From contig OU612075.1 of the NCBI GenBank assembly GCA_914767715.1, positions 3,906,001 through 3,970,000 on the forward strand: DNA of 64,000 bases, read 5' to 3'. This stretch comes from Membranipora membranacea (taxonomy: Eukaryota > Bryozoa > Gymnolaemata > Cheilostomatida > Membraniporidae). Both the position numbers and the translations under genes were made by a program. Shown here piece after piece: positions 8,613-20,160 of this stretch (positions within the stretch are counted from its first letter, which is position 1; each line of letters begins with the position of its first letter). The notes under the pieces were generated by a model. It was not told where the DNA came from, did no database searches, and saw only the letters and a program-made list of their open reading frames with translations.

Positions 8613-11600
8613 ATGACTGGTGCCAACCTAGGACAACACACATCAAGTGAGTTCCTATGCAATTAATTGATCTCTTCACTTCTGTGGTTGTGCAAACTAA
8701 AATAAAAATATAATTATAATTAATAGTAAGTTGGAGCAGGGAGAATTCTCCCTGTTTGGAAAGTTCAAATGAAATGACACAACCCATCTATATGTGTGTA
8801 TAAATATATAATTAAGAACTACACAATGGCCATGTTGCATTTTCGCCTCATTAAATTATTTTTATAAGCACCGTCTGGGAATGTATGTGTGTGGTAGCGC
8901 AGCTGGACGTTCTGAAGTATAAATAAATATCCCTTGTGTTTTTTCCATGTGAACCAAAATGTTCTAAGCTCAACAGCATGCCTGCAAATATAGGCACTTT
9001 ATTTTTCCTTCTTTTCTGCGTTCTGAATCTTTAGATTAAGCAATAAAGATTTAACAAACTAACATTTTCGCCGAGTTGTTTTGGTGTAGGTAGAAAACTA
9101 CTATCGTGTAAGTATGAATATTATGATGATTATGAATTTCAGCTCCCAGTTTACTCAATTCAAAAGTTTGTTTTTCAGCACCATCAACAACTCATGCACA
9201 TATGACCATGATAAGTCTAGCGGAGTTAGCCCATAGAGAATATCAAGCAGGAGACTATGAGCGTGCTGAGGCTCATTGTATGCAGCTATGGAAGCAGGAG
9301 CCAGACAACACTGGTGTTCTTCTCTTACTTAGCTCTATACATTTTCAATGTCGAAGATTAGACAGGTGAGTGAAAAATTTTTTATTGATATACCATAAAT
9401 TGCTGTGACATTATTGGGACCAAACATTAACTGTCCAAGTGCTCCAGCATGAAAACAAAATTTATGTTCTTTTTTTGTAGATCTGCATATTTCAGTCAAT
9501 TGGCAATAAAACAGAACCCAATGCTAGCAGAAGCCTATTCAAATTTAGGAAATGTCTTCAAAGAGACAGGTATGGTTTGTTTTTTTCCTGGCAACTGGAT
9601 TGATTCAATTTAATAAGTTTGAAAGAAAGATGCATCGATTAGAGCTAACTGTTTCATCATAGACAACAGTAGGTGTCAAACGTATGCTAGAATAATATGA
9701 AGTCTCTGGTTTCCACTTGTGTATGCTCACCTTCCAAAGTTAGACATGGCTGATCAGAATCTACAATAATAAACAGGTGCAATTACCTTTCTAGTGTAGT
9801 AATGTGCCCATACTGTATTTTACATTCATCTCTAACAAGGGTTTCGTTTGCCACATGGTAGGACTAATTGTTAATTGCTGTTTGCAGGACAGCTGGCAGA
9901 AGCTTTGGAAAACTATCGCTATGCTGTGAGCCTCAAACCGGATTTCATTGATGGCTACATAAATCTAGCTGCTGCGCTTGTGTCTGCAGGAGACATGGAA
10001 CAGGCTGTACAAGCATACGTCACTGCACTGCAGTACAACCCGGTGAGTAAACTTTGAAATAACAATGATCAAGAAACGTCTAGACTGAGATGCACTGCAA
10101 GTCCAAAAAACATGGCACGTAACCAAAATAATGCTTCTTTCGTTTGACCTTTGATCCAATGAGTAGCACAGGGAAAGTACAATCTGATTAGGTGGTCAGG
10201 TATAATAGTCGTTGTGTTATTTCTTGATTGCAGGATTTGTACTGTGTCCGAAGTGATCTGGGAAATTTGCTTAAAGCACTGGGTCGTCTTGATGAGGCTA
10301 AGGTATGTTTTACGCTCTATTACAAGCAGCCTTCAAAACTCAAGAGCCTAAAGTTGACAGCTTGGTCTTAACAGGGTAAAGTGAAAGGTGTTGTTACAAA
10401 CATATCTTGTGTCAAAGATATAGTTTTATTTACGTGCCTCAGATATAAAATTCTGCTGTGTTTGAAGCAACACCTCGATGACCTTGGGACAGTAAGGGTT
10501 ATTATAGCATCAACATCTATGTTATGTGCTGGCACATGAGACCATGATCAGTGAACTATTCACGAGGCAAAGCGTATGTTTGCTATGATCTGAAGCAGCA
10601 GGTTTATTAAAATTATTTTACCCACTTTATTCTACCACAGTCTGTATCGTGTCGTGTATACAGAACCTGTTTGTCGGGTACAGGTTGTCAAATATTTACA
10701 ACCGGTATTCCCATGATAAGTTCTCTCTTGTTCTTTATCACATTGCTATGTCTCAAAAGTCAGAACCAACTGCAATTTATAAGGATCAACAATCAAACAT
10801 ATTTTTATAATAAAAATGCATGATTATTATGCAAGAGAGAGCTTTGAATGGGTATCGGTGCACAAGTATGATCGGCAGGGTGGCTCTTATGTATGGGACC
10901 AGTTGAAATCTTCTATGGCCTTCTTGTGAAAGTTTCATGTAAAATGTGTGTTTAGATCAAGCTGTCAACATAATGCGTATCATCTCGACCAAAAGGGATG
11001 TGCTGATAAAGAGAACACATGAGTGGCTAATGTAAAAGGAATAAAAGAATGAAAGGCTGCTTGTTTTATGAGTGTTATTCAATGTGCTTGCCTGATACTG
11101 GAACACAATGATAATCCACATACTTATGTTCTGTAGTAGTCTGCGTCAGACTTCTATAATGTACCGCTCCGTCTATCTCTGCTGGAACAACCTCTCATAT
11201 CTACCTGTCAGAGTAACAGTGATGATGATGGCCTCCGAGATGAAACTATAGCCAGGTTTGGTAGGTGCCACCATGACAACAGAGCATTGATGGCAAACTT
11301 TGGCCTATGTACAGTTGTATAGCTGTTTCAGAAGCCTGTCTTACGTTTGCATTTCTCTTACCATATGCCTACTGCGTGCTGCTGCGCTCCATCCTGTGGT
11401 TTGCATATCTAGCTGGCATTGTTGGATGATTTGAATGCCTCTATATCAATTTACACTGGGTAGCAGAATAATGGTTGATTAATATTGGAGTAATTGAGGC
11501 AATCAAGTCAAACAGAGTGGACAGGTAAATGTGTTAGATACACTGAACTACTTCCAAATCAGAACCAGAAACAATTAACCTCTTACCTGATATGTTGAAT

Positions 11601-20160: not shown

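Follow-up and report, generated by a model that had tools for sequence, protein, structure and literature searches.

The window analysed, a stretch of 64,000 nt of the bryozoan Membranipora membranacea (positions 3906001-3970000 of contig OU612075.1, C11; genome of 339 Mb in 18 contigs), carries the gene for OGT, which we modelled as 20 exons and 19 introns, all 19 with GT/AG ends. The modelled protein aligns with solved OGT chains over residues 12-1019 of its 1021, the best match scoring 1800 bits (E=0). The first modelled exon is preceded by AG, so that exons further upstream lie outside the model, and position 20150 is the stop of the model only and implies no gene end. Exons 9 (14580-14680) and 10 (15113-15213), each 101 nt long and identical at 73 of 101 bases, code for the same TPR unit. 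The reading frame stays open with either one and is broken by both together; they thus have the appearance of, and probably are, a mutually exclusive exon pair. A 30-nt tandem repeat (14921-15021) lies between them in intron 9. The longest modelled intron, intron 4 (10303-12528, 2226 nt), separates the exons coding for GRLDEAK and ACYLKAI.

Intronic elements of OGT

A direct-repeat search and BLAST within the window revealed nine H/ACA-snoRNA-like elements, which form four families of 2, 2, 3 and 2 copies and occupy one OGT intron each, the other ten introns having none (Table 1). The initial annotation had described these nine elements, their four families and their order along the gene (1a, 2a, 1b, 3a, 3b, 2b, 4a, 4b, 3c), one per intron, and the repeat search, BLAST and the exon model all agree with it.

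Table 1. OGT and the H/ACA-like elements of its introns (positions in the window)
Feature	Intron	Positions	Strand	Parts
Host gene OGT		9179..20150	+	20 modelled exons, 19 introns
Element 1a	2	9632..9768	+	5' hairpin 9632-9688, H box AGAATA 9689, 3' hairpin 9701-9762, ACA 9763
Element 2a	6	13044..13178	+	5' hairpin 13047-13108, H box AGAGAA 13109, 3' hairpin 13117-13172, ACA 13173
Element 1b	7	13500..13636	+	5' hairpin 13500-13556, H box AGAATA 13557, 3' hairpin 13569-13630, ACA 13631
Element 3a, SNORA62-like	11	15891..16027	+	5' hairpin 15891-15948, H box AGACAA 15949, 3' hairpin 15963-16021, ACA 16022
Element 3b, SNORA62-like	12	16597..16733	+	H box AGATAA 16655, 3' hairpin 16669-16727, ACA 16728
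Element 2b	13	17064..17194	+	5' hairpin 17067-17127, H box AGATAA 17128, 3' hairpin 17137-17188, ACA 17189
Element 4a	15	17873..18019	+	5' hairpin 17873-17927, H box AGAAAA 17928; ATA 18014, ACA 18016; 3' end uncertain
Element 4b	16	18482..18627	+	5' hairpin 18482-18536, H box AGAAAA 18537, 3' hairpin 18551-18621, ACA 18622; 3' end uncertain
Element 3c, SNORA62-like	18	19381..19517	+	H box AGATAA 19439, 3' hairpin 19453-19511, ACA 19512

The lengths proposed earlier hold only in part. Those of family 1 (118 nt in both members) were not borne out: such an element stops at an ACATGG (9744-9749) within the second hairpin, and the hairpin closes at ACAATA in 1a and ACATTG in 1b, which gives about 137 nt. 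Those of family 4 (133 and 132 nt) are in doubt; the second hairpin folds better when extended to 18013 in 4a and 18621 in 4b, for lengths of about 147 and 146 nt, and at this extended end 4b has ACA and 4a has ATA, with ACA two nucleotides later. An ACATGG end, previously ascribed to five of the nine elements, is found in only three as drawn here (2a, 2b and 3a).

The reported loss of similarity at the 3' end of families 2 and 3 was confirmed, the following 30 nt matching at 4, 7 and 10 positions in three comparisons. In family 1 similarity continues past the 3' end (23 of the following 30 nt), and 9611-9796 aligns with 13472-13664. Directly after element 1b, intron 7 contains an inverted-repeat element (13653-14135) with arms of about 116 nt; related sequence is also present at 43714-44063 and 48307-48439.

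H/ACA architecture

The arrangement hairpin, ANANNA, hairpin, ACA was searched for with a rule-based scan, written after single folds of the elements were known and used with a cut of -25 kcal/mol picked after the first run. At this cut or better, eight of the nine element introns gave a match, located at the element in each case, and 4a was missed. Matches were rare in the controls: 10 of 322 segments of 320 nt from outside OGT (both strands), a length that introns 4 and 7 exceed, 2 of 19 antisense introns and 2 of 540 dinucleotide shuffles of the nine element introns. Without the energy cut, 9 of the 19 introns (one of them intron 4, which holds no element), 20 of the 322 segments and 25 of the 540 shuffles were matched. 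When each element intron was set against 60 dinucleotide shuffles of itself, eight of the nine outscored every one; the intron of 4a gave no match. The previously proposed reading as hairpin, hinge, hairpin and ACA is thus supported by the scan for eight of the nine elements.

Three of the ten matches in control segments come from one tandem repeat (26760-27719), a long repeat that is open in several frames at 26842-27552. The additional H/ACA-like match in intron 4 (11184-11316, -25.4) was not counted, as the window contains no paralog of it and it is in keeping with the frequency of matches in the controls.

An ANANNA H box between the hairpins is present in all nine elements, that of 4a (AGAAAA) being taken from its own fold; in 3b and 3c the best scan match took as H box ATAAAA, 2 nt after AGATAA. 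ACA directly follows the second hairpin in eight elements, the aligned place in 4a being occupied by ATA. A fold of the complete element gives two hairpins for 4b but not for 4a, where they appear only if the two halves are folded separately. The stability of the whole element is unremarkable in several cases, with z of -0.46 for 1a and of -1.36 and -1.46 for the longer forms of 4a and 4b.

Predicted rRNA targets and known snoRNAs

A DNA query located the rDNA at one contig end (L012), with 18S, 5.8S and the first 2893 nt of 28S. Diverged large-subunit rRNA gene copies also occur within chromosomes at several places (L011, L008, L009 and L010), and the 3' part of 28S was taken from the L011 copy, which makes the targets of family 2 less certain. 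Two stretches of this part were compared with the three other diverged copies, L007 being excluded from the count as the same place as L011. CAAAAGG recurs in two of them (L008 and L009, the latter differing also just upstream) and reads CAAAAGT in L010; GATTTTGATTT recurs in all three.

Pockets were scanned at 11-17 nt from the box, and the sites retained lie at 14 nt; for the 3' hairpins of family 1, some candidates at other spacings score as well as or better than those retained. The search of pockets against rRNA had been suggested beforehand by the initial annotation, and in each family at least one pocket proved complementary to an rRNA uridine 14 nt from the box. With pockets fixed at this spacing, each was compared with 300 shuffled guides. 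These counts are somewhat favourable to the elements, because the pockets were chosen from the earlier pocket scan and the 3' pocket of family 3, missed by the pocket rule, was set by hand.

The 3' pocket of family 3 gave the lowest energy (-25.0 kcal/mol, reached by none of the 300 shuffles). The 5' pockets of family 4 (-21.6 kcal/mol in 4a and -19.8 in 4b; 0 and 2 shuffles) and of family 2 (-17.2 kcal/mol; 0 and 3 shuffles for 2a and 2b) came next, and the 3' pocket of family 2 reached -12.9 kcal/mol (12 and 21 shuffles for 2a and 2b). The 5' pocket of family 3 yielded -16.6 kcal/mol in 3a (9 shuffles) and -10.6 in 3b and 3c, which 147 of the 300 shuffles reached, the level of chance. That of family 1 (-12.8 kcal/mol, 43 shuffles) is unremarkable by energy alone. 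No convincing rRNA target was found in the pocket scan for the 3' pockets of families 1 and 4; 28S U2270, at a spacing of 13, is a candidate common to the second pocket of 1a and 1b in that scan only.

The predicted sites are thus 28S U2533 and U2664 for family 1, two strong candidates in the 3' part of 28S for family 2, 28S U2749 for family 3 (with 18S U106, convincing in copy 3a only) and 28S U1049, a strong candidate, for family 4. For families 2 and 4 the pseudouridine status of the site is itself a prediction.

Comparison with yeast used the positions and base types given in the table of PMC8307265. At an offset of +400, all 23 modified yeast 25S bases between 2133 and 2421 agree with the bryozoan sequence (12 of 23 at the next best offset), and U2533, U2664 and U2749 therefore correspond to yeast 2133, 2264 and 2349; Psi2129, just beyond the aligned range, would fall on a C. 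Among 1100 uridines, the family 1 5' pocket has its two best sites where yeast has Psi2133 and Psi2264. The yeast table (PMC8307265) enters the two under snR3, so the first pocket of family 1 shares its predicted targets with snR3, a likeness by target only.

The best site of the family 3 3' pocket is the equivalent of yeast Psi2349, in the 28S context CUACUA[U]CUAGCGAA, which we take to be human 28S 3830. Three pockets were tested against known sites, 13 in all (18S 106 and 12 of 28S). The best match of a shuffled guide fell within this set in 5, 4 and 8 of 800 cases for the three pockets, and the top two never both did (0 of 800); the top two of the actual family 1 pocket both belong to the set. 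The best sites of families 2 and 4 lie outside this set. On the yeast numbering, offsets 267, 268 and 271 each fit three of six anchors for 28S U1049 and a remote offset fits five of six; several offsets tie or nearly tie for the family 2 sites. In 18S, offset 0 fits Am28, Am100 and Psi106 and not Psi120, other offsets fitting three of five equally; U106 may be yeast Psi106, judging from the three anchor bases, the shared number and the sequence context. Psi106 is listed for snR44 in the yeast table (PMC8307265), and the first pocket of family 3 is predicted to act there, convincingly in 3a only. The chicken guide of 18S-105 is given as a functional homolog of snR44 in a table of PMC2653536.

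The covariance-model check proposed by the initial annotation went against it, as Rfam, run on the whole window, returned no snoRNA or other family at the gathering score. Family 3 scored 24.7-26.9 bits with SNORA62 and ceN58 (cut-offs of 80 and 60; E 0.077-0.3). With SNORA62 (E2, RF00091) its scores were 24.7-26.7 bits, below the gathering cut-off of 80, and we make no claim of membership in RF00091 because this curated score was not reached. The second hairpin of family 3 shares with SNORA62 the consensus blocks UUCGCUA and UUUGAUAGUA, and from its sequence family 3 is predicted to work like SNORA62. Human SNORA62 targets 28S 3830 and 3832, and the sponge orthologue lies in an intron of FAU, according to PMC4515611. 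The hosts of SNORA62 are RPSA or FAU, whereas that of family 3 is OGT, with three copies in one gene.

Copying within OGT and its implications

Paralogs were compared in the pairs 1a/1b, 2a/2b, 3a/3b, 3b/3c and 4a/4b, 3a/3c being left out. Nucleotides pairing with the predicted targets changed at 1 of 74 positions, against 79 of 614 elsewhere (Fisher p=0.0016); for family 3 the count takes in the 3' pocket only, and its two pairs share member 3b. The single guide change lies in 4b and turns a G-C into a G-U pair. Pairing in the consensus structures was kept in all 10 one-sided and all 5 two-sided changes, a test that leans towards kept pairs since the structures derive from the same sequences.

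The nine elements are presumably working genes. That some copies work and others, such as 4a, are decaying snoRNA pseudogenes is compatible with our preferred reading and seems to us to have a little under an even chance. In 4a the ACA is missing from the aligned position and the scan found no match, family 4 has diverged from the H box on (22 of 91 positions) and the 5' pocket of 3b and 3c is at chance. Against this, the target of the family 4 5' pocket is kept in both copies, and 3a and 3b differ at only 2 of 79 positions from the H box on, compared with 14 of 58 before it. The stretch without change (0 of 70) in this half-wise comparison was chosen by eye, and its p value is not relied on.

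A whole-genome DNA search with one member per family found two, two, three and two copies of families 1 to 4, all in OGT; these counts are lower bounds over the 339 Mb covered, and very common words were skipped by the search. Spread through the genome in the manner of SINEs had been named as an observation that would speak against snoRNA genes, and only these nine copies, in a single gene, were found. Unless many diverged copies escaped these searches, the elements are therefore not SINEs, and a dispersed-repeat origin is rejected on copy number. Insertions of SINE or MITE type that landed by chance in OGT introns could also give repeated, interleaved copies, and intron 7 does contain an inverted-repeat element; such repeats are nevertheless a most improbable source, given the copy counts and the sparing of guide nucleotides. 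Duplication of long blocks was likewise rejected because intron sequence outside the elements is unmatched (beyond about 30 nt in family 1). The repeated copying between introns suggested earlier is thus supported as duplication within OGT.

Structured intronic sequences confined to OGT in genome searches could also be paired RNA motifs that control its splicing, for example at exons 9 and 10, rather than processed small RNAs, the more so as these two exons are probably mutually exclusive. We give this next to no weight: introns 8, 9 and 10, which flank these exons, hold none of the nine elements, and such motifs would not be expected to have an H box, an ACA box, a 14-nt spacing and pockets for rRNA.

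Thus the nine elements are very probably intron-encoded box H/ACA snoRNAs of four kinds, each in two or three copies, copied between introns of one OGT gene. The H/ACA interpretation made earlier is supported by architecture relative to controls, copy number, guide sparing and rRNA complementarity, partly at known pseudouridine sites. Support is strong for families 2 and 3 and good for family 1; for the 3' half of family 4 it is weak. Most likely the elements direct chemical modification of ribosomal RNA. By the known pathway, OGT pre-mRNA would be spliced and the debranched intron trimmed to a two-hairpin RNA held by H/ACA proteins; its pockets, complementary to rRNA, would pair with it and position a single uridine to be converted to pseudouridine.

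The snoRNA class, its production route and this mode of copying are already known; what is new is that OGT is the host, that four kinds are interleaved in it and that no other copies were found in the genome. For chicken, PMC2653536 describes as dominant the pattern of snoRNA paralogs that sit in separate introns of a single host and retain their guide regions. The likeness of the OGT elements to this intragenic (cis) duplication lies in paralogs across introns of one host with guides kept; the OGT case differs in having four kinds interleaved over nine introns of a glycosyltransferase gene. It is a clear example of within-gene snoRNA duplication, the guide nucleotides being nearly fixed and the remainder drifting.

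In the open-licence PMC literature, judged mostly from titles and abstract openings, no paper was found that names OGT as host of a snoRNA. PMC4618350 deals, in its passages on OGT, with a retained-intron RNA and not with a snoRNA host, and in four sponges 51 snoRNAs are reported from introns of ribosomal protein genes (PMC3412847). If our reading is true, OGT, the gene of a nutrient-sensing enzyme, joins the protein-coding hosts of guide snoRNAs. It is quite unlikely that the nine guides tie ribosomal pseudouridylation to sugar status, more OGT splicing giving more guides. Guides of this kind are usually not limiting. OGT splicing is nutrient-sensitive in mammals, so guide output could follow sugar status; intron 4 of the human gene is a regulated detained intron, its detention occurring at high O-GlcNAc (PMC12017769).

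Elsewhere in the window, the minus strand at 21443-22601 has open frames whose translations, inspected by eye, resemble a non-LTR reverse transcriptase.
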